Source: a virus. From it: a DNA stretch of 23,693 bases. The notes under the pieces are model-generated. The model saw only the letters and a program-made list of their open reading frames with translations. It made no database searches and had not been told where the DNA came from. Made by a program: the position numbers and the translations under genes. Shown here one piece after another: positions 3,405-21,647 of this stretch; positions within the stretch are counted from its first letter, which is position 1; each line of letters opens with the position of its first letter. Location: positions 1 through 23,693 of the IMG/VR virus record IMGVR_UViG_3300042373_001105, one strand, 5' to 3'.

Positions 3405-3848
3405 TTAGTCTGGAATACCTATTGCAATGATGTGAACTTTAAGGGCCAAAGACCCTCCTGTATTAAAGCGAACAATGCCGTTAACAGATGAGTTGGTAAC
3501 GCTTTGAATAATAACTGACACGTTTTGGCCAGAAGAAGTTCCTTCAATTAAAACTGGAGTAATCGTTACAATTGGCGGGTACCTGTATTCTCCCTTAAAA
3601 GAGTAAGAAAAAGACTGTGTGGTTTCGGCTGTCACATTTGTAAGGGTGGGATAGATTACTTTTTCTCCAGCGACTACCTTGGTGTCTGTAAGCAAGGTGC
3701 TTTCATTTCCACTTGTAGTATCAATAGATGCGTACTTATATCTTGCTGAAGATATTTGTGACGAAAGGTCATTAATTGCTTCTACAATTTGATAAACATA
3801 TGATACGTCTAGAGGCTGTCCTCTATCTGGAGTTGGTATTTTGGCCAT
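3405..3848 (-). CDS. Minor tail / tail fibre tip-like protein
   Basis: A 147-residue probable virion protein. Residues 1-35 (PTPDRGQPLDVSYVYQIVEA, then INDLSSQISS) form a helical segment like those that trimerise or attach small fibre proteins. The rest is beta-rich: FSYSFKGEYRYPPIVTITP, then QNVSVIIQSVTNSSVNGIVR and LKVHIIAIG. This resembles compact beta-sandwich tip domains of the H-type lectin kind, which bind sugars. It is the last structural gene before the replication module. It likely decorates the tail tip and contributes to receptor recognition. No Shine-Dalgarno precedes the ATG; TATAAT sits 5 bases upstream. Confidence 0.65.
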   Translation of the reverse strand: MAKIPTPDRGQPLDVSYVYQIVEAINDLSSQISSARYKYASIDTTSGNESTLLTDTKVVAGEKVIYPTLTNVTAETTQSFSYSFKGEYRYPPIVTITPVLIEGTSSGQNVSVIIQSVTNSSVNGIVRFNTGGSLALKVHIIAIGIPD

Positions 3849-10909: not shown

Positions 10910-11611
10910 TTAAACCTCTTCTAGAGTTACAGAAATATTCCAGAAATCATAATTTGATCCACCACGTTTTTCAACAGAGTAACTAAAATCAGAGATATAC
11001 ATTTCTATGATTTGGTTATACTGTCCAAGTTTTTTATATCTATTTACATCGTCTTCGCTAAAGTTAGTATACTTATCGTAAGCTAAATACACCCAAAAAG
11101 AATCCTGATGGCTGTTATACCAATCTAAAATTTCTACCCCGCCAGCTCCGCCATCAGTTGTATACTGCTCTGAAGCTGTAGTTGCATTCGGAAGAATTTT
11201 AAAAGATCCATCTGTTCCAGGACTACGAACTCCAGAAACTATCAGGTCTGGATCTGCTATTTCAGAATCAAAATTCGGGTATTCTGAAAATGACCTAGAT
11301 GGAAGCATATTCCAAGATGTTGAAATAGTAAGCTTATCTGCAATGTGATAAGACCTCATTCTTCCGTTAATCATTCTTTCTCTGCGTTCCAACCTAAAGG
11401 GCTGAAACTGTAATGGCTGACGATTATCATCAGACAACACAATAAATTCATTTAAAAGGTCTCCAGACTCAGTCTGTGAAATATCTTGACCAACCTCAAA
11501 GCCGTTAGGTATGTAAAGGCCAGATGAAAGAGTCCCTGGATTATTTGCCCATAGCATTGCCTGAGGCCTTTGGTACTTTTTCCTACTGGTCATATATACG
11601 TTAGTAGCCAT
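10910..11611 (-). CDS. Distal tail / minor tail protein
   Basis: A 233-residue protein immediately downstream of the tape measure gene, the usual place of the distal tail protein that joins the tube to the tip hub. The sequence is beta-rich, with a conserved-looking C-terminal half (DSFWVYLAYDKYTNFSEDDV, then IIEMYISDFSYSVEKRGGSN and DFWNISVTLEEV). The closing pattern (SDFSYSVEKRG ... DFWNISVTLEEV) is like that of tube-fold proteins, which tend to end in a strand describing a tube or ring subunit. No signal peptide or membrane segment. Its ATG overlaps the tape measure stop (TAATG), with AGGT about 5 bases before. The distal-tail role is inferred mainly from order; it could be another baseplate ring protein. 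Confidence 0.65.
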   Translation of the reverse strand: MATNVYMTSRKKYQRPQAMLWANNPGTLSSGLYIPNGFEVGQDISQTESGDLLNEFIVLSDDNRQPLQFQPFRLERRERMINGRMRSYHIADKLTISTSWNMLPSRSFSEYPNFDSEIADPDLIVSGVRSPGTDGSFKILPNATTASEQYTTDGGAGGVEILDWYNSHQDSFWVYLAYDKYTNFSEDDVNRYKKLGQYNQIIEMYISDFSYSVEKRGGSNYDFWNISVTLEEV

Positions 11612-14600
11612 TAGAACCTGTTGCTCCTTATTCTTTGAGAATCGATTCTACGAATCTGCCCCATAACTGTTTGTGCAATAGCATTTGGATCTGATACAGA
11701 AGACACATTTACACTCAAGTTATAATTATACACTGAACTGTTGTCTGATATCGAAGGTACATTAATGTTTACTGGAGCAGAGTCAACTCCATAGTTGCCA
11801 GTTGTACCCTTAAAGCTTGGATTATTAAAAGATGGAATCATTCCATTATTAAGTTGTTCAAAGAACTTTGGTCCAAATTTTCTAACTGCTGGTCGTCTTA
11901 TTACAAACTCTCCAGGAGTCAGCATTGCGGGGACGATATCTGATCCTAGAGGAGACCCTCCATTTGAGTAGTTAGCCATAATCTTGCCACCCATGGCCCT
12001 CTTAACCCACTGGACTCCATTCCAAATAAACTGTCCTCCAGGCCCTACCTGACCAGGCTTATCTCCAGGCTTTTCTGGTCCAGGTCTTGTATTGCCAGGA
12101 GTTGGTTTAAATTCTGGATTAGGAGTTAAGATATTCTTTCCTGTTTCGCTACCTATCTTTACCCAAGACTTTCCATCCCAGACAAAGTTGCCCTGAGGAC
12201 CAAGCTGTCCAACAAAAGACCCATCTTTTTCTGGTCCAGGTCTTGAACCTTCAAATCCTCCTGATCCTCCTGGCAACTGCATTCCCGCCATCTGCTGCAA
12301 GGTAGCCAAAGCTTCTTTAAGACTATCCGCATACTCTTTAGTAGAAAACTTTGCACTGTTAATCTTATTAACAAGATCATCATACTTTAGGCTTTGCAGC
12401 TTCAAGCTTGCCAAAGCCGTTTCTCTTTCAACCTCTATAAGCCTTACTCTTTCCCTTGCTGGCTCAAGCCTATCTTCTTCAATCGCAAATATTTCTTTTT
12501 CTTTTTTAAGAATATCTTCTTCAAGCTGCAACCTTGACTTGCCCTTTGAAGAACGTACAAAGCCTAGCTCTTTTTCTCTTGCTGACTCAAGAGCAGAAGA
12601 CTGTCTTTCAAAAGCTTGCTCAGCCTGAGTTTCTCTTATATTTTGAACTGCTTGAGCCGCAGCTGAAAGGTCTCCTCTAGTGATAGCTTCTGCAAGTGAT
12701 AGCTGTCCTTTTTGCTGATCAGAAATATCAGAGTTTATGCGTCTTACTTTATCTAGAGCTTCTGCTCGTTTATCATACTTATCATTGATAGCATCTTCTT
12801 TCCAGCTTATCTCCTGAAGTCCTGCTTGGAAGTCATCTATTTGGAATTGTAAAGCAGCAATATCAGATTCAGCTGAACGTATTGCCGTCATGTCTCCAGA
12901 TACTGCAAACTCAAAATTAATCTCAACTCTTTCTGTTGCAGAGTCTATGCTTTCTTTTAAGAAGCTAGCAAGGCTTTCTGGGCTTATCTCCCTTATTGCT
13001 TTTTCTGCTTCTTTTGCAGAGTTAACGATAGTCTTTAATTCTTCCCTGCCTTTTTTACCAAGTTTCATTGTTGCAATACCAGCAGCAAAGGCAGCATCCT
13101 CCACTGCACTGTAAGCATCTGAGGCAGCCATTCCAGCAGAGATTAGTCTTTCAGCCGCTATCTTTTGGTTTTTTGAATTTGCAATAGCTCTTTGCTGATC
13201 TATAACAAAACCACCGATAGAAATTTCATTAAAGGTTTTTTGCAAAGCCTTTCCTTCATTGGTTAGCTTTGCTACACCCTTGCTAATTTTAAATAGCTTA
13301 TTTTGTTCTGATTTATCTAAGCCTGATATAAAGCTTTGAAACTCTTCTGTTGTTCCTCCAGCTACAAGGGCGTTCATAGTGCCCTTAAAAGGCCTCATGT
13401 CTTTAGCCTTGCCCAACCACTTAGTTAGCTCCTTAAGGCCTCCTGTGGCCTTCACAGCGTCTTGGCGGAGCTCTTTAAGATCTGTTAGGACATTCTTGTA
13501 AGGGCTTTCTTTTTTAGTTCCACCTGTAGGGGTTTTCTCGGTGTCAATTTCACCAGTAGGATCTTTTGCTAGGTTTCCTGTAACATATTGCTCTGCATCT
13601 TCTCCCGCAATAATTGAAGCAACTTGCTCATCTGTAAGTTTGCTTTCAAAAGCTGGCTTTTGTGTATTTCTCCAGGCTTGAATCATATCAGGAGCTTTCA
13701 AAACTGTTTCATATTGAGTAGCATATACCTGTGTGTAAACAACCTTTTGATCTGGTGGAAGATCTTTGTAGAAGTCGTCGAACTGTGCACCCTGCTCTGC
13801 AGTAATAATTTTTTGTTCTATAAGACTTTCTACATTGAGCATTCCTTTATTCTCTAGGTCTTTTAGCTTGTTAAATTTTTCCGTTAGCTCTGTTAGTTTA
13901 TTTAAATTTTCTCCATAAAATTTCAAAACAACTTCTGGCTCAATTGCATTGCCATCAAATGTTGCTATTTGGGTTAAGGTATCTACTGTATCTTTTGCCT
14001 GCTTTTCGCTTTTTCTATTGATGCTTAATGAAATTTGATAAGCAACCTCTGGATCTTTTAATATTGCAAAAACTGTTTCAAGCTGGCCCAAAGACTGAGG
14101 CCCAACCTTTGTGCTTATGTCTGCTAAAACTGATAAAGTAGCCTGCCCCTTACCAGTAGTTGGATCAAACATTTTCATTAACCCATTAAAAGTTTCGGAA
14201 TCTATGTTTCCTGCTGTAAGCTCTCCCAAAATTTGAAGCTTAACCTCTTGAAAGGCTGCCTCTTTTGCAATATTTTCTGCTCCAGTTAATCTGCCACCAC
14301 CAGTAGCTCTAAGAGTCTTTGTAGAAACATCTTGGCCAAATGCATTTTTGGCCACTACAGCTGAAGAGCCTTGTAACTTTCTAGCAGCTTCACCAACCTT
14401 TGGGTCTAAGCCTATTGCAGTGTTTGCTAGTTGTGATAAAATTCCTTGTTGGTTTGCAAAATCCGCTGCCGAAAAGTCTTTTTGCAACTTATAAATTTCT
14501 GATGTATAAGTCTCTATAAGTCCAGCTCTTTCAATTTGATACTTTTCTTCTAAAGCAAGAGCTTCATCGTATTTTCCTTCAGCATAAAGCTTATCAATAT

Positions 14601-17600
14601 TTTTTAGATTTTCTACATCAAAAGCATCAACTAGTTGTTGGTTTTCATCATAGAAATTAGCAACTATTCCAGCTGCTTCTCCTTCTAATTTTGCAACTCG
14701 TTCAGTATCCATCCACCAGAGTGGGCCAGCTTTATCTGTAAAGTCTTTTGACTGAAGAATTCCTCCTGCTCCAGCGATGCCAGAGGTTGACCCTTTGACA
14801 AACTCTGTGTAAATCTTTATAGTGTTTCCTTCTAACAACTTTCCGTCTGGTCCAATAATTGATTGAATTGACGCATTTATGTTTGCAGTTACATTGTAGT
14901 CGTTTAGCTTTTGCCCTAAAGAATTTGCTATGCTCTTTGCTTGCTCTGGACTTAATACTCCTGTGGCTACGGCTGTGGTTAGTTTTTTCTGTAAAGATTC
15001 TATAGCCTTAGATCGTCCAAATTTTTCTGTTTGATTTTCAAATTCAGAAAGCATTCCTTGGCCAGCTTCTGATTGAACAAACGACTGGCCAAAAGTTGTC
15101 TTTCCTGTCTGTACAGTAAATGGAGAAAATTGCTGTTGCCTTCTTTTTTCCATAAATTCAGATGGCGTTACTGTTCCTGCAGCTTCAGCAAACCTTGACA
15201 TTGCATCTTTACCAGAACTTAGCGATCTAGTTGCATCGAACGATTCTTTTCTAATGTTTTGTAAAGCTATTTGAACAGCTACAAAACCGCCAACAACGGC
15301 TGCAAGAGCAGCAACAACTAGTCCGACTTTGCTTGCTAGCATTGGAGCTATCATAGAAAGCATCATCACTGGCATCATTAGCTGATTTGCAATTTCTCCA
15401 ATTTGTCCACCAACCATGGATCCGCCAATTACACCAACCATTGCAGCTGCTCCTACCCCGCCAGCAACTTTTCCTCCCATACCTCGCATCTTAGATTGAC
15501 GAGCTAACCGCTTTTCTTCTTTAGTCGCTAGGCGTGTCTTTTCTTCTGCAACTTTTTGTTCGTCAACAAGTCTAGCTTTTGTCTCAGCCACTCTTCTTTG
15601 TTTTTCTGCAGCTTCATTCTTTTTTCTTTGTGCCCGAAGTTTTGCCTGCTCATCCTTTGTAGCCTTATCCCAGTCTTTTGAGGACATCCCATAAGCTTGA
15701 CTAATGCCAGAAGATCTTCTATCTGGAGTTTGCCCCTCTGGAAAACCATCCGCAAATCCTGGAAGTCTTGGGAAATTACTTGACCCTAATGTAGCAAGCC
15801 TTCCTATTCCAGGAAGCATAACTCCCCTACCCCGCATTAACTCTCTGTTTGTTTTTTTAGTTAGAATTGTTTCCCCAGGAGTTACTGCAGCCATTCGTGT
15901 ATCTGATGCTGAGCCACCAGATACCCTAGCCCCAGCTGGAACCTTTTCATCTGATCCACCGATAGTTTGAGACTGCCTCCTTTTGTCCTCAATAACGTTT
16001 TCGCCTATAAGTTGAGAATAAGTCCTTAGACCTCTATCGTAAAGGTTGCGTTCAAATCTTCGATCTAAAAGCTTTCTGGTTAGTATGGCCTGATATTTTC
16101 CTTCTCTAACCTTACTGTTTCTGCTGTTTTTTGACCATACCTTTTCATCAAATGTTGTAATTGCTTTAAGGGTTGCAGCTGCAGCTTTGGTTTTTGGATG
16201 ATCACCAGACACTAGTTTTTCAAGCTCTTTTCGATCTTTAATTTTTAATCGTCTTAGCTGTCCATCACTTAAAGACATTAGGTGTTTTCCTAGGTTTCCG
16301 CTTACTCTATTTAGGTAATTATTTAGACCACCAACGTCTGGACCTATCTTAGATATATCTTTCCAGTCTTTAATGCCGTCGCCTTTTGCCGCAAAGTGTG
16401 ATGCATCAATTTTTGTAAATCTTGCAAGCTGGCTGTTAGAAATACCTAGCTTTTTAGCCTCAGCTTCTAAAAATTTTATTTCGTCATTAAAGAGTCCTGA
16501 TTTAATAACACTACCAGTTAAAGTTCCAACTCCCGAACCTGAACCTCCAGAAATTGTGTATTCGTGTCTTTTTCCACTTGAGGTAGCAGTATTGTTAACT
16601 CTAGAAGGAGTTAAAATTTGTTCTCTGTCAGAAAGATCTGTTAGCCTTCTTAAAATGCTCTCATCTGGTCTTCCGCTTACTCGCATTGCTTCAATAGTCT
16701 CTGGAAGTTTTTTAGCATTTCTTTCAGCAAATCTACCTCTAGTTTTAAATCTTTTGCCCAAGAATTCAACCCAATGTTCTCCATCGGTACTGCCACTAAT
16801 TGCTTTTGATCCTTGACTATACCCAGGAACACCCATCTTTTTAAATAGTCTTGCAACAAAGCCAGATCCAACAACACGAACTGACCCCATGCCTGCAGCC
16901 CTTAACTCTTGTTTTAGCTGTTTTGCAATGGCTGGGTCACGAGCAATAATTTTGTCAATTTCTTTAAATGCAAATCCGCCAGGAGTATAGGTCTCTATGT
17001 ATGGTGGTTTTGGATTAGTTGTAAAGCTGTTTCCACCAGTTGGGATATTTCCAAATGGCTGTCCAAATCTTCCAAATTGAGCTGCTTGTGACTGACTTCT
17101 TGTTGCCCCACGCATTGGTGCTGGAGAACTTGATAAGTTTCTGTTTCTAGAATAATCTAAAAGAATATCTCCAGCATAAGCAGATGATCTTTTGGCTACA
17201 GATCCCTTTGTTATTAAGGAAAGATCTCCGTATCTATCTAGCTTAGATGATCTTGGGTTCATTGCTCCTGAAGCTCTTGCTCCAGTTTTTCCAAAAAGAA
17301 GTGTGTTTAAAATTGTTTGAAGAGGTGATGATGAAGCAAACCCATATGTTGGACGTTGACCTGCTGAGGTAGAGCCTGGCAGGCCAAAAACATCTTGCTC
17401 TAATTTAGTTCTTAATTGCTTTTGCTTAGGCTTCTTTAGTCCATATTTACTTAAGAAGTCGTCTCCAGTTCCTGTAGCAAAACCACTTTGATACTTTTTG
17501 TTTCCAGATGCTAGTGCCTGAGAAAAAGCCTGAGATTGCATCCTAACGCCAACATTTGATCTTCCAAGCATTGAAGCAAATGGATTTCTACCAATTCTAA

Positions 17601-19743
17601 ATCCAGGAACGTTGTCTGAAATAAGAGAAGAAATAATTCCGCTGTATTTCTTTGATTGCTTAGCTGGAATAACTGCTTCTCCTGGGGAAAGCATTGCTGG
17701 AACAACATCTCCAGCCCCCTTTGGTCCAGGAACAGACAGAACTCCAGAGGCATACTTTTTAGGAGCTCTTGTCCTTCCAATTACACCACCACTCATGGCT
17801 GTTTGAGCTGCCAAGGATCTTCTGTATGCAGCTGTCAAGGCATCTACGGCACCAGCTTCTGAGGTAAAAGTCTGCCTTAGTGTTTGGTGTACCTGGTTCA
17901 AGGATGAGGCTACTGCAGCAGCTTCAAGCTGTTGCTGAGTCATATACTCTGTTTGTAATCCTAGCTGTGTGCTAGAGCTTGCTGCTTTATTCATTGCAGT
18001 TTTAAAGAATACAAATCCTTTTATTACGTTTGCAACACCGTTAGCAATAAGACCAAAGCCCATTAAGAATACTGGACCAATTACTCCAGCAATTGCTGTT
18101 AAGCCCACAACAAACTGTTTAGCTCCAGCATCCAGTTCATTAAACTTTTCAAGAATCTTTGTTCCAAATTCTAGAACTGGAGTTACAGCCTTTAAGAATG
18201 CCTCTCCAAGAGGAACAAGTGTGACCTTGATATCTTCAACAGCTTTTTGGAACTTAAACATTGGAGAGTCTTCAACTTTTTTCAACTCTCGCTCAGAAAG
18301 GATTGCTAGCTCTTCAGTAGTTGCATTTGCTAGCTTTAAAACACGACTAGCTTGGTTACCTTCTTTAATAACGTTTTGGAACAATGTAGATAGACGTGCA
18401 AACTGGAACTTACCAAATAGCTGTTCAATTGCCTGTGCACGATTTAGCGGGTCTAAGGTATCTAAAGCCTTAGCAAAATCTATTACAATTCCTTTAACGT
18501 TCCCCTTGTTTGCTTCAACAATACCCTTAAGATTAATCCCAAATCCTTGAAGCATTTCTGCAGCTTTACCAGTTGGGTTAATCATGGATGCAAGACCAGA
18601 CTTTAGTGCGTTTGCACCTTCTGAAGCATTAATGCCTCCCTCACGCATGGCGGTGAGGAAGAAGGTCAGGTCTTGAACATCTCCACCAAGCTGCTGAACT
18701 ACTGGACCAGCTTTTGGAATAGCAATTGTAAGATCTTCAATAGAAGTAACCGTTTGGTTTTCAACAGCGTTTAGGAAGTCAATCTTACCTGCTAGATCTT
18801 CTGCAGAAACTCCAAATGCGTCTGTTAATGATATTGTAGCTTTAAGGGCTTCTGCTTGCTCTACCCCACCCAAAACAGCAAGGCGTGTAGATTCTGCAAC
18901 TTGAGCAGTTAGGTCTGCACCCATTTTACCAGTAGCAGCAATGTCAGCAGCTAGCTCCATGGTTTTTGATACAGCTATGCCATACCTTGTAAACTCATTA
19001 GCAAGGTCTTTTATTTCTGCTAAAGCTTTGTTTGTTTGTTCTGTTGTAGTAAACAACTCTCCATAAACACGTTTAAACCTAATAGCCTGTTTTTCCATGT
19101 CCATGAATGTTTTTGATGCAACGCTACCAAACATTACTAGAGGAATTGTAAAACCAACCATAAGCTGACGTCCAGCCCACTGGGTATTCTTACCAAAGTT
19201 TAGAAGATTGGTTGAGCCTTGCTTTAACATTTGGTTTAGCAAAGCTTGACGTTGAGCAGCAATCTGAGTTTTTGTTCCCAGACTTTCCATATCTAAAGCA
19301 AGCGGTCTAACTGCAATTGCTTTTATTGCACCGTTTGCATCACGGCCCATTCTAATGTACTGGGTCTGAAGGTCTTTGACACGTTCACGTGCGACCTTGT
19401 TTATTGTATCAAATTCAGTTCTAAAGAATCTACCAAAAGTTTTTGTTGCAGCACCAGAGTATCTAAAATACTCTCGCATAGAAAGCTTATTTTTTTCTAA
19501 TGCGTTTGTAAAGGACTCTGTGGTAGATTTTACATTTTTTATAGTTGCAGAGAATTGGCCAGTTCTGTTTATACTATTAAGCAGTCCCTGCTGCAAATTC
19601 ATGGAGGTGGCAGCGGCAGCTGCACCACCCTTGGCCATATTAGTATGGAAGGCTGAAATCTGCCGTTGAAGATTCTTGATACTTGCCAATGCGGCAGCGG
19701 TATCAATATCAACTCTTATATTGGCATTGGCGTCTTCAGCCAT
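11611..19743 (-). CDS. Tape measure protein
   Basis: A 2710-residue protein that sets tail length and is carried inside the tube. Layout by residue: 1-200 helical (coiled-coil); about 248-403 the conserved tail tape-measure core (LAADIAATGKMGADLTAQVA, then AVLGGVEQAEALKATISLTD); about 540-584 hydrophobic region 1 (TAIAGVIGPVFLMGFGLIAN); about 675-700 PGE motif 1 (DVVPAMLSPGEAVIPAKQ); about 700-1280 a non-coiled basic insertion; about 1283 PGE motif 2; about 1361-1419 charged coiled coil; about 1420-1495 hydrophobic region 2; about 1500-2484 long helical part; 2501-2582 two 30-residue repeats; about 2604 PGE motif 3 (DIVPAMLTPGEFVIRR). Start ATG at 19741-19743 with AGAGGTG 8 bases before. Assignment is firm; the meaning of the insertion is not known. 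Confidence 0.95.
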   Translation of the reverse strand: MAEDANANIRVDIDTAAALASIKNLQRQISAFHTNMAKGGAAAAATSMNLQQGLLNSINRTGQFSATIKNVKSTTESFTNALEKNKLSMREYFRYSGAATKTFGRFFRTEFDTINKVARERVKDLQTQYIRMGRDANGAIKAIAVRPLALDMESLGTKTQIAAQRQALLNQMLKQGSTNLLNFGKNTQWAGRQLMVGFTIPLVMFGSVASKTFMDMEKQAIRFKRVYGELFTTTEQTNKALAEIKDLANEFTRYGIAVSKTMELAADIAATGKMGADLTAQVAESTRLAVLGGVEQAEALKATISLTDAFGVSAEDLAGKIDFLNAVENQTVTSIEDLTIAIPKAGPVVQQLGGDVQDLTFFLTAMREGGINASEGANALKSGLASMINPTGKAAEMLQGFGINLKGIVEANKGNVKGIVIDFAKALDTLDPLNRAQAIEQLFGKFQFARLSTLFQNVIKEGNQASRVLKLANATTEELAILSERELKKVEDSPMFKFQKAVEDIKVTLVPLGEAFLKAVTPVLEFGTKILEKFNELDAGAKQFVVGLTAIAGVIGPVFLMGFGLIANGVANVIKGFVFFKTAMNKAASSSTQLGLQTEYMTQQQLEAAAVASSLNQVHQTLRQTFTSEAGAVDALTAAYRRSLAAQTAMSGGVIGRTRAPKKYASGVLSVPGPKGAGDVVPAMLSPGEAVIPAKQSKKYSGIISSLISDNVPGFRIGRNPFASMLGRSNVGVRMQSQAFSQALASGNKKYQSGFATGTGDDFLSKYGLKKPKQKQLRTKLEQDVFGLPGSTSAGQRPTYGFASSSPLQTILNTLLFGKTGARASGAMNPRSSKLDRYGDLSLITKGSVAKRSSAYAGDILLDYSRNRNLSSSPAPMRGATRSQSQAAQFGRFGQPFGNIPTGGNSFTTNPKPPYIETYTPGGFAFKEIDKIIARDPAIAKQLKQELRAAGMGSVRVVGSGFVARLFKKMGVPGYSQGSKAISGSTDGEHWVEFLGKRFKTRGRFAERNAKKLPETIEAMRVSGRPDESILRRLTDLSDREQILTPSRVNNTATSSGKRHEYTISGGSGSGVGTLTGSVIKSGLFNDEIKFLEAEAKKLGISNSQLARFTKIDASHFAAKGDGIKDWKDISKIGPDVGGLNNYLNRVSGNLGKHLMSLSDGQLRRLKIKDRKELEKLVSGDHPKTKAAAATLKAITTFDEKVWSKNSRNSKVREGKYQAILTRKLLDRRFERNLYDRGLRTYSQLIGENVIEDKRRQSQTIGGSDEKVPAGARVSGGSASDTRMAAVTPGETILTKKTNRELMRGRGVMLPGIGRLATLGSSNFPRLPGFADGFPEGQTPDRRSSGISQAYGMSSKDWDKATKDEQAKLRAQRKKNEAAEKQRRVAETKARLVDEQKVAEEKTRLATKEEKRLARQSKMRGMGGKVAGGVGAAAMVGVIGGSMVGGQIGEIANQLMMPVMMLSMIAPMLASKVGLVVAALAAVVGGFVAVQIALQNIRKESFDATRSLSSGKDAMSRFAEAAGTVTPSEFMEKRRQQQFSPFTVQTGKTTFGQSFVQSEAGQGMLSEFENQTEKFGRSKAIESLQKKLTTAVATGVLSPEQAKSIANSLGQKLNDYNVTANINASIQSIIGPDGKLLEGNTIKIYTEFVKGSTSGIAGAGGILQSKDFTDKAGPLWWMDTERVAKLEGEAAGIVANFYDENQQLVDAFDVENLKNIDKLYAEGKYDEALALEEKYQIERAGLIETYTSEIYKLQKDFSAADFANQQGILSQLANTAIGLDPKVGEAARKLQGSSAVVAKNAFGQDVSTKTLRATGGGRLTGAENIAKEAAFQEVKLQILGELTAGNIDSETFNGLMKMFDPTTGKGQATLSVLADISTKVGPQSLGQLETVFAILKDPEVAYQISLSINRKSEKQAKDTVDTLTQIATFDGNAIEPEVVLKFYGENLNKLTELTEKFNKLKDLENKGMLNVESLIEQKIITAEQGAQFDDFYKDLPPDQKVVYTQVYATQYETVLKAPDMIQAWRNTQKPAFESKLTDEQVASIIAGEDAEQYVTGNLAKDPTGEIDTEKTPTGGTKKESPYKNVLTDLKELRQDAVKATGGLKELTKWLGKAKDMRPFKGTMNALVAGGTTEEFQSFISGLDKSEQNKLFKISKGVAKLTNEGKALQKTFNEISIGGFVIDQQRAIANSKNQKIAAERLISAGMAASDAYSAVEDAAFAAGIATMKLGKKGREELKTIVNSAKEAEKAIREISPESLASFLKESIDSATERVEINFEFAVSGDMTAIRSAESDIAALQFQIDDFQAGLQEISWKEDAINDKYDKRAEALDKVRRINSDISDQQKGQLSLAEAITRGDLSAAAQAVQNIRETQAEQAFERQSSALESAREKELGFVRSSKGKSRLQLEEDILKKEKEIFAIEEDRLEPARERVRLIEVERETALASLKLQSLKYDDLVNKINSAKFSTKEYADSLKEALATLQQMAGMQLPGGSGGFEGSRPGPEKDGSFVGQLGPQGNFVWDGKSWVKIGSETGKNILTPNPEFKPTPGNTRPGPEKPGDKPGQVGPGGQFIWNGVQWVKRAMGGKIMANYSNGGSPLGSDIVPAMLTPGEFVIRRPAVRKFGPKFFEQLNNGMIPSFNNPSFKGTTGNYGVDSAPVNINVPSISDNSSVYNYNLSVNVSSVSDPNAIAQTVMGQIRRIDSQRIRSNRF
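11998..12087 (-). repeat. Tape measure C-terminal repeat, copy 2
   Basis: Encodes residues 2553-2582, starting RPGPEKPGDKPGQ and ending FIWNGVQWVKR. It is exactly 30 codons, like copy 1, with 18 of 30 residues identical (RPGPEK, G, GQ, GP, F, W, G, WVK conserved). Seen directly in the sequence. Confidence 0.85.
12154..12243 (-). repeat. Tape measure C-terminal repeat, copy 1
   Basis: Encodes residues 2501-2530, starting RPGPEKDGSFVGQ and ending FVWDGKSWVKI. It is separated from copy 2 by 22 residues. The spaced tryptophans and Gly-Pro content suggest a small exposed beta-hairpin-like unit rather than coiled coil. Confidence 0.85.
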
Positions 19744-19761: not shown

Positions 19762-20085
19762 TTAGTTGCTAACAAGACCGTTAAGAGAAACTTCTCCAAG
19801 CTTAACGCCTGATGCTTCCTCAACAATCTTGTAAACTGTAGGGAGATCTAGAATCTCCTCTAAAGCCTTTAAATCTTCAGCCAGTTCTGGCTTGTACTGC
19901 TTCATTGCGATTTGAACACAGTCCATCAAAATACTCATTGACTTGTCGTTATCCTCTGCAACTTCTGCAATACCCTCAAACTTCTTCATAAAAGGACGAA
20001 GCAAAGAAATCTTCAAGGGACGAACCTTGATCTCTGTTCCGTCAATTAGCTTAATTGTCTTTTCTTCGTATACTTCTGTGCTCAT
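19762..20085 (-). CDS. Short tail assembly chaperone (G-type), paralogue of the upstream gene
   Basis: A 107-residue protein that helps the tape measure protein fold and tube subunits assemble. It aligns from end to end with the N-terminal ~96 residues of the next-upstream gene: STEVYEEKTIKLIDGTE against ATEAYESKNITLIDGTE, and DLPTVYKIVEEASGVK against NLPTIYKILDIAAGIK, roughly 40% identical by eye. It lacks the T-like domain; only 18 bases separate it from the tape measure gene, so no frameshift extension is possible. ATG at 20083-20085 with GGAAGGA about 10 bases ahead, and TGTTATAAT further upstream. Sample 60-base lines run at about 40% GC, above the ~30% of its paralogue. The chaperone role is inferred from position and paralogy. 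Confidence 0.8.
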   Translation of the reverse strand: MSTEVYEEKTIKLIDGTEIKVRPLKISLLRPFMKKFEGIAEVAEDNDKSMSILMDCVQIAMKQYKPELAEDLKALEEILDLPTVYKIVEEASGVKLGEVSLNGLVSN

Positions 20086-20119
20086 ATTATTTTAGTCCTT
20101 CCGCTATGAGGCTTTACCT

Positions 20120-20128
20120 ATTATAACA
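20120..20128 (-). promoter_or_regulatory. Extended -10 promoter element for the short chaperone and tape measure
   Basis: TGTTATAAT in the 53-base gap between the two chaperone genes is identical to the element at 3854-3862. A start about 7 bases downstream would give a short leader of about 28 bases that keeps the GGAAGGA ribosome site. No good -35 at 17 bases. Overlaps no coding sequence. Confidence 0.45.
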
Positions 20129-20138
20129 TAAAAGGCTT

Positions 20139-20840
20139 TTAATTTATAGGCTTTTTGGTTAAATCTTCGTATCCAAGGCCCATCCCAATACCAAATCCTG
20201 CCTTTTGAGCATTAACCCCCTGTAGGGCAAGAACATCGTTTGCATTGGCAGCTTTACCACCACTAAAGACTTTGGCCTTCATTTCTTCCCATTTATTACC
20301 AGAACTATTCCCATTATTTTTATCTAAATCTACCCCTTGCATTGCTGCAAGAAACTTTTTTTCCTGATAGTCTAAGTCTCTTTTAGATTCAAGAGTTAGC
20401 ATTAGTTCTGGCATAGATAAAGATATCTCAAGCTCTTCATAATCTTTCCAAATACCAAGCAAAAATAGCTCAGCTTCAAGCTTTGCCAAATCTAGTTTTT
20501 CCCAAGAAGATCCGCTGTCTTCTGCCTGCTGCTTTACTGGATTTTCAGATTTTCCATCAATTTTTATTCCAGCAGCAATGTCTAAAATTTTATAGATTGT
20601 TGGCAAATTAACGCTGTCTTCTAGTTCTGATATAGTTGATATTTTAGGATAGTATTGCCTCATTGCTATTGCTGCACAATTTGACAAAAAGATAATAGCT
20701 TCTTCATCATTGTCAGCTGTTTTTACAAGCTCAAAAGCCTCCATAAACTGTCTTAAATATTTTATTTTTAGCGGTACCAGAGTTAGTTCTGTGCCATCTA
20801 TAAGAGTAATGTTTTTTGATTCATATGCTTCTGTTGCCAT
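20139..20840 (-). CDS. Long tail assembly chaperone (G+T type) in one reading frame
   Basis: A 233-residue protein from ATG 20838-20840. A TTG eight codons upstream (20864) could extend it, but the paralogue aligns at the ATG. Residues 1-96 are the G-like domain (LTLVPLKIKYLRQFMEAFEL, then PTIYKILDIAAGIKIDGK), then a linker (ENPVKQQAEDSGSSW), then a helical T-like domain (about 115-205: DLAKLEAELFLLGIWKDYEE) and a Gly-rich tail (GFGIGMGLGYED). In many phages T is reached by a -1 frameshift; here both halves lie in one frame and I see no usable slippery heptamer at the junction. No Shine-Dalgarno precedes the ATG; a TATACT box lies 6 bases before it. Sample lines are about 28-32% GC. Confidence 0.85.
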   Translation of the reverse strand: MATEAYESKNITLIDGTELTLVPLKIKYLRQFMEAFELVKTADNDEEAIIFLSNCAAIAMRQYYPKISTISELEDSVNLPTIYKILDIAAGIKIDGKSENPVKQQAEDSGSSWEKLDLAKLEAELFLLGIWKDYEELEISLSMPELMLTLESKRDLDYQEKKFLAAMQGVDLDKNNGNSSGNKWEEMKAKVFSGGKAANANDVLALQGVNAQKAGFGIGMGLGYEDLTKKPIN

Positions 20841-20846
20841 ATTATA

Positions 20847-20852
20847 AGTATA
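20847..20852 (-). promoter_or_regulatory. -10-like TATACT directly before the long chaperone gene
   Basis: TATACT followed by 6 bases (TATAAT) and the ATG at 20840. It lies just beyond the terminator T-run, so transcription stopped after the major tail gene could restart here, giving a leaderless message. It is part of the shared GGTATACTTA. No -35 is obvious. Confidence 0.35.
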
Positions 20853-20856
20853 CCGC

Positions 20857-20892
20857 AAAAACAAAACTGCCCAGCCTAAAAAGACTGGACAG
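20857..20892 (-). terminator. Rho-independent terminator after the major tail protein
   Basis: On the minus strand CTGTCCAGTC (20892-20883), loop TTTTTA, then GGCTGGGCAG (20876-20867) gives a 10-pair stem with two G-U wobbles, followed by TTTTGTTTTT (20866-20857). It starts 27 bases past the major tail stop codon. The plus strand has no T-run after the hairpin, so it acts on the minus strand. Typical after a highly expressed structural gene. Confidence 0.85.
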
Positions 20893-20919
20893 CTTCGTGT
20901 TATTAAGTTATATATTAAA

Positions 20920-21588
20920 TTATGATACTGCTGGGATAGTGCGGTCTACGATCTTACCGTATGATGCATCATCGTTTGGTAGCAAACGGAATGAAACTTC
21001 GTACATTGTAGGCTCGTCACGCTTTGCAGATACTGTAACACTCTCAATTGAAAGTGCACGGTATGCTACATAGATACGCTCAATCTGCTCGTCTGGGTTA
21101 CAGTCACCTGTACCTGGACCAACAGCTACGAGTCCACGCTCTACTGGACACTCACCAATGTCACCTGCTGTTAGGTTTAGGGTTGGAGATCCAGCCTTAA
21201 TACCTGTAGCACCTGCACTTGCGGTTAGGTCATCGTCCTTACCAGCTAGTGAGAATAGCAAGTTCTCTAGTGTTGCCTCAGCAAAAGCAGTGTTCAGGTT
21301 AACCTGCATACCCTGCTTGTATAGCTTTGCAACGTCAAGAACCTGGTCAACCTGTACCTCACCGAAGTCAGGCTGGAACTGTAGCTCTAGACCATTCATT
21401 GTGTAACCTACGTTACGGTAGTCTGCGTCATTTGCTAAAGTCTCACGGTAAGTTCCTGTTGTGTTTCCAACAGTTCCTTCAGCCTGGTAGGCTGGAAGAT
21501 CTGCATCCGTCAATACACCTGCTTCGTATGTAAACAAAGCGGCTGCACCAACGATAATGTTGGTACTTGTACCTCTTGTATATGCCAT
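20920..21588 (-). CDS. Major tail (tube) protein
   Basis: A 222-residue subunit of the tail tube, polymerised around the tape measure protein. Start chosen at ATG 21586-21588 (MAYTRGTSTNIIVGAAALFT): AGAGGTG sits 6 bases before it, and an upstream in-frame GTG (21597) overlaps that ribosome site, so is unlikely. The fold reads beta-rich (LQFQPDFGEVQVDQVLDVAK, then IERIYVAYRALSIESVTVSA and EPTMYEVSFRLLPND), as for tube proteins. It is flanked by tail-terminator and chaperone genes, with its own leader, -10-like element and a terminator after it. Two sampled 60-base lines have 45 and 50% GC against about 30% in the long chaperone gene, suggesting codon selection for high expression. Confidence 0.9.
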   Translation of the reverse strand: MAYTRGTSTNIIVGAAALFTYEAGVLTDADLPAYQAEGTVGNTTGTYRETLANDADYRNVGYTMNGLELQFQPDFGEVQVDQVLDVAKLYKQGMQVNLNTAFAEATLENLLFSLAGKDDDLTASAGATGIKAGSPTLNLTAGDIGECPVERGLVAVGPGTGDCNPDEQIERIYVAYRALSIESVTVSAKRDEPTMYEVSFRLLPNDDASYGKIVDRTIPAVS

Positions 21589-21638: not shown

Positions 21639-21647
21639 AGTATACCA
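21639..21647 (-). promoter_or_regulatory. Extended -10 promoter element for the major tail protein
   Basis: TGGTATACT on the minus strand, within the 66-base gap between the tail terminator gene and the major tail start. A start about 7 bases on would give a leader of about 44 bases containing the strong ribosome site. The -35 position shows no good match. It is part of TGGTATACTTA. Confidence 0.45.

Follow-up and report, generated by a model that had tools for sequence, protein, structure and literature searches.

A fused G-T tail chaperone gene followed by a G-only paralogue in relatives of Streptomyces phages

Ribosomal frameshifting in the tail chaperone genes of phages is a standard example of conserved recoding. 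In phage lambda the longer product contacts the major tail protein through its T part and the tape measure through its G part, G is present in many copies for each G-T, and both products are required in a set ratio (PMC5009743, available portion). The locus examined here lies in a 23.7-kb stretch of a virus record, the whole of which we call the window, and it carries a chaperone gene with both halves in one open frame, followed by a second gene that encodes a G domain only. It raises the question of how a balance between G and G-T could be reached from two genes rather than by a ribosomal slip.

The locus and its two chaperones

The tail genes of the window all lie on the minus strand and read, in order, major tail protein, hairpin with T run, long chaperone, short chaperone and tape measure. 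The features are as follows.

20920..21588, minus strand: major tail protein gene, 222 aa (phrog_885, E 4.6e-4), the upstream neighbor
20857..20897, minus strand: intrinsic-terminator-like hairpin (20897-20862) with a T run (20861-20857)
20847..20852, minus strand: -10 box TATACT, its end 6 nt upstream of the long-gene ATG; predicted leaderless-type promoter
20139..20840, minus strand: long chaperone gene, 233 aa, G and T halves fused in a single frame, ATG at 20840
20142..20525, minus strand: T half of the long protein, about residues 106-233, as aligned with the Streptomyces T ORFs
20120..20128, minus strand: extended -10 TGTTATAAT of the short gene, 34 nt upstream of its ATG
20096..20102, minus strand: Shine-Dalgarno sequence GGAAGGA of the short gene, upstream of its ATG
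19762..20085, minus strand: short chaperone gene, G domain only, 107 aa, paralogue of the long G half
11611..19743, minus strand: tape measure gene, 2710 aa (PhageMin_Tail, PF10145, E 4e-24), the downstream neighbor

A preliminary description of this DNA had put the long gene between an ATG at 20840 and a stop at 20139 and the short gene at 20085-19762, both on the minus strand, and these coordinates are correct. It had also counted 18 bases after the short gene, and exactly 18 nt do separate the short-gene stop from the tape measure ATG; reading in either of the other two frames runs into a stop no later than where the short gene region ends. The spacer between the long and the short gene is 53 nt. 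The GC content of the short gene is 39.8%, as in the earlier estimate of about 40%, whereas the figure of about 30% for the long gene did not stand, the whole gene being at 35.6% (31.7% for the G half alone and 38.0% for the T half). The major tail protein of the window also matches phrog_2175 (protein with Ig domain; E 9e-31), and the gene in the corresponding position in phages EGole and Coruscant is annotated as the major tail protein. An extended -10, TGGTATACT, is found at 21639-21647 on the minus strand, 50 nt 5' of the major tail protein ATG, and may be that gene's own promoter.

The structure of the long protein as a G-like and a T-like half in one frame, proposed in the preliminary description, is borne out by the open frame itself and by separate PHROG matches: the T half is matched on its own by phrog_10474 (residues 130-213, E 1.7e-14), and the G parts of the long and short proteins both match phrog_10504. 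The downstream gene is, as had also been proposed, a G-only paralogue, with 44% identity between the long G half and the short protein over 102 aligned residues (E 5e-28). The two PHROG families carry the label "unknown function"; our results suggest that 10504 is the chaperone G part and 10474 the T part, and the two families could be named accordingly.

In Streptomyces phages the homologue of the T half is the ORF in the -1 frame. Measured against the first row of alignment A1 (L017), identity is 40-43% for three Streptomyces T ORFs and 80% for the window row. The nearest relatives in the phages collection are 127 Streptomyces phage records, each with a single matching place, and many of these relatives are annotated as tail assembly chaperones. 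A PHROG family that is annotated in this way, phrog_1932, was matched weakly, with a best E of 0.0011, by 14 of the 36 sequences in alignment A4, which comprises 33 short genes and three frameshift-type G. For a model of the short protein (pLDDT 73) the best viral fold match, in BFVD, was a tail assembly chaperone (TM 0.77, E 1.3e-7), and in a re-alignment against PDB entries the HK97 chaperone 2ob9 came second (Z 4.5, rmsd 4.2 over 85 residues), a match that is weak when taken alone and is tied with unrelated rows. It is on homology to annotated chaperones together with gene position, both genes sitting between those for the major tail protein and the tape measure, that the tail chaperone assignment rests. 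The model of the long protein had no PDB match at E 0.001, an absence that is no sign of a new fold; Pfam held no useful family for either chaperone, and a plasmid search with the short protein gave no match. The top entry in the re-alignment of the short model was 5ir0 (Z 4.8, also weak), the Vibrio cholerae PICI-like element protein ORF19 of unknown function, which, judged from the model, may be chaperone-like.

Arrangements among relatives

Related genomes were surveyed for the same gene order. Loci came from IMG/VR, from species genome scans and from three named phages, and 324 of them had a match; the set is redundant and was built from the best 80 of 598, 482, 547 and 336 confirmed relatives (two of these totals being "at least" values), so the ratio of 255 to 55 given here is no census. 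Among the matches listed, 255 of the 324 redundant loci have the fused G-T gene and then G, the order anticipated in the preliminary description, and 55, Streptomyces phages included, have a single locus with T in another frame, which is the -1 frame in all 55. The comparison left out 13 loci cut by contig ends, as well as L122, and apart from L122 a frame-split pair with an extra G was not present among the matches listed at the 324 loci. The duplicated pair of G-T and G is real and conserved. In L122 (positions 1-650, near a contig end) there is one base fewer than in L121 inside the G half of the long gene, a frame break that reflects either a sequencing error or a damaged copy.

A canonical heptamer (CCCAAAT, CCCAAAC, CCCAAAA, GGGAAAT, GGGAAAC or AAATTTA) lies in the G frame at 23 of 40 distinct frameshift-type junctions, a count made with no chance control, and the phage Sham, a Streptomyces relative, is annotated with G and a joined two-piece chaperone; we infer from sequence that frameshifting occurs at loci of this type. 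At the remaining 17 junctions (L162, L164 and relatives) a non-canonical C CCG GAA stands at the same position and is a possible slip site.

At the fused loci the picture is different. The preliminary description had seen no slippery heptamer at the domain junction, and we find no in-frame XXXYYYZ heptamer in the linker of the window's long gene (codons 85-115); two in-frame heptamers occur elsewhere in the gene, at codons 8 and 160. Nor are slippery heptamers enriched in fused linkers generally, where 14 of 99 genes have them and the mean is 0.141, against 0.176 in 50 synonymous shuffles. A hidden slippery site in the fused gene was rejected on these figures.

We then consider whether the two arrangements could be related by one switch. 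A concatenated tree was built from T, the N-terminal part of the tape measure and the major tail protein, with 30 dereplicated rows (20 of the frameshift type, and 10 of the 20 duplicated loci for which all three genes were available). In this tree, which carries long-branch warnings, the duplicated type is monophyletic with a support of 99 and the frameshift rows fall on successive outer branches. A two-gene tree of 89 rows, quick and unconstrained, needs two changes; holding the duplicated type together gave a tree for these rows that was better by 38 log-units, and one clade was not rejected (AU p 0.877). The tree of T only (98 dereplicated rows) also needs two changes. A single switch from frameshifting to duplication fits these data, with two of the three quick trees requiring two changes. 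The central claim of the preliminary description, duplication instead of frameshifting, is thus well supported by the frameshift-type homologues, by the nesting in the 30-row tree and by the unenriched heptamers.

Start signals and the balance of products

The long gene had been described as lacking a Shine-Dalgarno sequence and as sitting behind a terminator, and both features were found. The hairpin has 16 pairs and a computed energy of -23.8 kcal/mol (calculated on L002, which is identical over this stretch). Ahead of the long gene, a hairpin followed by a T run is present in 60 of 60 dereplicated regions, compared with 9 of 60 mononucleotide shuffles; by the same test it was found ahead of 4 of 63 short genes (shuffles 3) and 14 of 32 frameshift-type genes (shuffles 1). 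A Shine-Dalgarno-like motif is absent from all 142 distinct long-gene upstream regions, and judged by duplex energy (-6 kcal/mol or lower) a Shine-Dalgarno is present in none of 60 dereplicated long genes, compared with 56 of 63 short and 28 of 32 frameshift-type genes. The preliminary description missed a promoter-like signal of the long gene, TATACT, placed 6 nt ahead of its ATG. The motif TGN-TANNNT occurs in 131 of the 142 distinct long-gene regions, mostly with a spacing of 6 nt to the start (101 regions), and the window's form, a -10 box that has no TGN extension, is among the other 11. Among dereplicated regions, TANNNT is located exactly 6 nt upstream of the long ATG in 48 of 60 (shuffles: mean 4.0, maximum 12) and within 5-9 nt of the start in 59 of 60. 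We saw no -35 element for the long or the short gene of the window, and the promoter scan of the window, which demanded a -35, listed neither -10 box and did not list the long-gene hairpin. With TGN missing at the window's long promoter and no -35, promoter strengths are guesses.

The short gene is differently equipped. The good ribosome site and -10-like box attributed to it are present as GGAAGGA and TGTTATAAT, and such signals recur among its homologues: TGN-TATAAT precedes the short gene in 142 of 148 distinct regions (60 of 63 when dereplicated), the extended -10 being 23-30 nt from the start in 119 of the 148, and a permissive Shine-Dalgarno motif is found in all 148. Frameshift-type genes have the permissive Shine-Dalgarno in 39 of 39 cases and TGN-TATAAT in 26 of 39, most commonly at 24 nt; their starts were chosen by a simple rule (15 ATG, 15 TTG and 9 GTG), so these leader lengths are uncertain. 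Given that the frameshift-type genes resemble the short gene, the short gene would have the old-looking cassette and the long gene the new one. Separate signals for each gene, as first proposed, are hence supported and can be put more specifically, with a leaderless-type start for the long gene versus an extended -10 and a Shine-Dalgarno for the short.

Starts of the leaderless type appear, from their motifs, to be general in the duplicated-type phages. One record, of 124.5 kb and with an identical long protein, contains 82 extended -10 sites; for 15 of these an ATG follows after exactly 6 nt, whereas the other 59 spacings together account for 90, or ∼1.5 each. The exact pattern TGNTATAAT-N6-ATG has nine copies in this record, and with one mismatch allowed there are 23, versus 2 for the reversed pattern. 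Seven other duplicated-type records have 7, 8, 6, 9, 8, 8 and 3 exact copies, two frameshift-type records have 0 and 6, and three Streptomyces phages have 1, 0 and 1; the reversed TGNTATAAT pattern had no exact match in those twelve records. Within the window, a gene at 3405-3848 on the minus strand (147 aa) has TGTTATAAT 5 nt ahead of its ATG, a leaderless-type start.

All 12 genomes tested (the window, a fragment, is not among them) gave a WhiB match above the cut-off, and among 14 control genomes Corynebacterium glutamicum alone did so. Because WhiB is present in all 12, the hosts of these phages are probably actinobacterial; their Streptomyces-phage relatives (Stanwilliamsviridae-like) share the tail module. 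Leaderless mRNAs can be well translated in actinobacteria, so that "leaderless" does not imply "weak." Leaderless genes have been reported to make up more than 20% in actinobacteria (PMC3160421, available text). A frameshift-type chaperone locus of the same family was also met in a metagenome-assembled genome labeled as an uncultured cyanobacterium (L340, contig CAINGU010000031.1); a WhiB match lies on contig 31 of this genome, by its number probably the same contig, and L340 has the appearance of an actinophage contig that was misbinned.

From the start signals, backed by codon adaptation and transcript layout, we infer that the ratio of short to long protein is set with G in excess, and we think it probable that this excess of G over G-T is governed by a pair of promoters and by two ways of starting translation, which arose after gene duplication. 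A frameshifting chaperone gene would have been duplicated once. The downstream copy would have retained the ancestral-type cassette of extended -10, leader and Shine-Dalgarno together with the G domain, and lost T; in the upstream copy G and T would have been fused in frame behind a new promoter giving a leaderless mRNA. As there is no terminator-like hairpin between the window's two genes, both promoters would give transcripts that include the short ORF, whose translation would start from a good Shine-Dalgarno, and the long ORF would be carried on one transcript and start without a leader. The predicted outcome is that free G exceeds G-T, the balance required for lambda tail assembly. In phage TP901-1, particles made with G and T permanently fused were intact in appearance yet non-infectious, a result that its authors take as confirming an essential ratio of gpG to gpGT (PMC4493119, available text). 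A natural fusion would on this basis require a separate source of G, and the short gene could supply it. That the frameshift has been replaced by this particular division, a leaderless start for G-T and a Shine-Dalgarno start for G, is a proposal that we advance tentatively and hold to be unlikely as it stands; if true, the G to G-T ratio would no longer be fixed by a slip site and could change as infection proceeds or according to the condition of the host's ribosomes.

Indirect measures of expression agree in direction with an excess of G. In 85 of 89 loci (the test covered 89 of 99) the short gene comes nearer than the long G half to the codon usage of the phage's own major tail protein, with means of 0.606 for the short gene, 0.480 for the long G half and 0.487 for the T half, and values of 0.613, 0.375 and 0.350, respectively, in the window. 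The GC content of the short gene exceeds that of the long G half in 89 of 89 loci. These data fit a short protein that is more highly expressed than the long one, the proxies being indirect and the loci phylogenetically dependent. Recombination avoidance was considered as a reason why GC is low in the long G half and set aside: identical residues in the long G and the short protein use identical codons in 704 of 1485 cases (0.474), against an expected 0.418, and so give no sign of selected codon divergence. The longest exact match between the paralogues is 14 nt at most (41 loci).

The two G domains also differ in how fast they appear to change. Mean pairwise identity between phages is 0.578 for long G and 0.718 for short G, with short G the higher in 227 of 250 sampled pairs (41 loci). 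This greater variation of long G between the same phages, and its long branch, could mean that the paralogues have divided roles and not doses, the long G half having a distinct binding job, for example at one end of the tape measure, and short G serving as the general tape-measure coat. A less expressed copy is also expected to change faster, however, long G and short G retain similar predicted secondary structure, and divided roles would be compatible with control of the ratio; we regard this explanation as unlikely, while ranking it first among the alternatives.

Somewhat less likely again is that the fused G-T was acquired from another phage and placed before a resident frameshift gene that then lost T. 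The G tree (95 dereplicated rows, with every second duplicated locus) has long G as one clade (support 97) and short G as one clade (support 92), and when left free it joins short G to the nearest frameshift G and sets long G outside, on a long branch, as acquisition would have it. The four nearest frameshift G resemble short G more than long G in all of 256 comparisons (means 0.581 and 0.429), a result that speaks for the two-gene reading given above. The Streptomyces G are equally distant from both (0.374 each), and this equality counts in favor of acquisition. Against it, a long branch can falsely be drawn outwards, and a single clade of long and short G was not rejected (AU p 0.431; 74 rows, two long-branch rows out). 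Furthermore, no donor was found in the phages collection, where the long protein matches the 127 records in one place each, and each of the 60 sampled evenly by rank is matched in two pieces, the pattern of a frame-split locus.

An improbable alternative to the two-promoter reading is one long transcript that continues past the hairpin, the -10-like boxes being inert and the ratio arising only from the presence or absence of a Shine-Dalgarno. The failure of a simple scan to give a two-hexamer promoter at either site accords with this, as does the lack of a Shine-Dalgarno, by energy, in 60 of 60 long genes. It would leave without a function, however, the position-specific conservation ahead of the long gene of TANNNT at 6 nt and TG at -15/-14, the TGN-TATAAT conserved ahead of the short gene and the conserved hairpin with its T run. 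The same motif and ATG spacing moreover recur genome-wide, with between 3 and 9 exact copies per record in eight records of the duplicated type, and the reversed pattern has no exact match in the seven, of these eight, that were so tested. A last alternative is that truncated G is still made from the long gene, by an unseen frameshift or by slippage in transcription, the short gene being a spare. It might appeal to the heptamers of the 14 fused linkers, which are mostly A-rich, and to those at codons 8 and 160 of the window gene, but it is scarcely credible with linker heptamers no commoner than in the synonymous shuffles and none in the window's linker.

Comparison with known systems

The closest isolates that we found are the Stanwilliamsviridae Streptomyces phages EGole, BillNye, Coruscant and Sham. 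Their chaperone genes have homologous G and T, in the same gene order as in the window, and in EGole and Coruscant a hairpin and then TGN-TATAAT with a Shine-Dalgarno precede G. They differ in having one locus with T in the -1 frame, the junction being CCCAAAT in BillNye and C CCG GAA in EGole and Coruscant.

Two separately expressed chaperone ORFs with no evident frameshift are reported for the Microbacterium cluster EA1 (PMC7302621 and PMC11659878, available portions), and there, as here, the two ORFs lie between the major tail protein and the tape measure. In Ilzat, a phage of this cluster, neither chaperone is a paralogue of the other (best E 6.2), and the two align to successive portions of a single 312-aa family, so that the order is G and then T, not G-T and then G. 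On this one genome we rejected EA1 as an instance of the same arrangement.

In its start signals the long gene resembles the leaderless genes of Actinobacteria, which have TANNNT ∼12 bp ahead of the start (PMC3160421, in the text available); the first T of its TANNNT is at -12 and it has no Shine-Dalgarno. Unlike those genes, it is a phage tail gene paired with a Shine-Dalgarno-led paralogue. Leaderless promoters have been predicted in the cluster O mycobacteriophages, but on other genes, and the available part of that account describes the chaperones as frameshifted and contains no chaperone duplication (PMC4351075).

In the portions of the open-licence literature that were available, we found no description of a duplicated pair of G-T and G replacing frameshifting, and a paper on frameshift prediction presumes, in its available text, a joined frameshift gene wherever there are two chaperone genes (PMC10885494). 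As with gpG and gpG-T of lambda, the locus described here stands before the tape measure and encodes G alone as well as G-T, with T joined to the same G domain. Unlike the -1 programmed frameshift of lambda, it has two genes, the long one first, and no slippery site at the junction, and the ratio therefore cannot come from frameshift efficiency at that junction. Two products that share a G domain, one of them with T, are thus present by virtue of two encoded genes, whereas production of G-T by programmed ribosomal frameshift is not, G-T being an in-frame fusion. Hence, we regard the duplicated pair as a gpG/gpG-T system that departs from the known one in its lack of the frameshift, and as a new variant. 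A clade that has seemingly lost the frameshift and yet keeps both products is a natural experiment, which argues that the product ratio, and not frameshifting as such, is under selection, and two promoters with two modes of initiation offer a testable route by which recoding of the lambda kind could be replaced.
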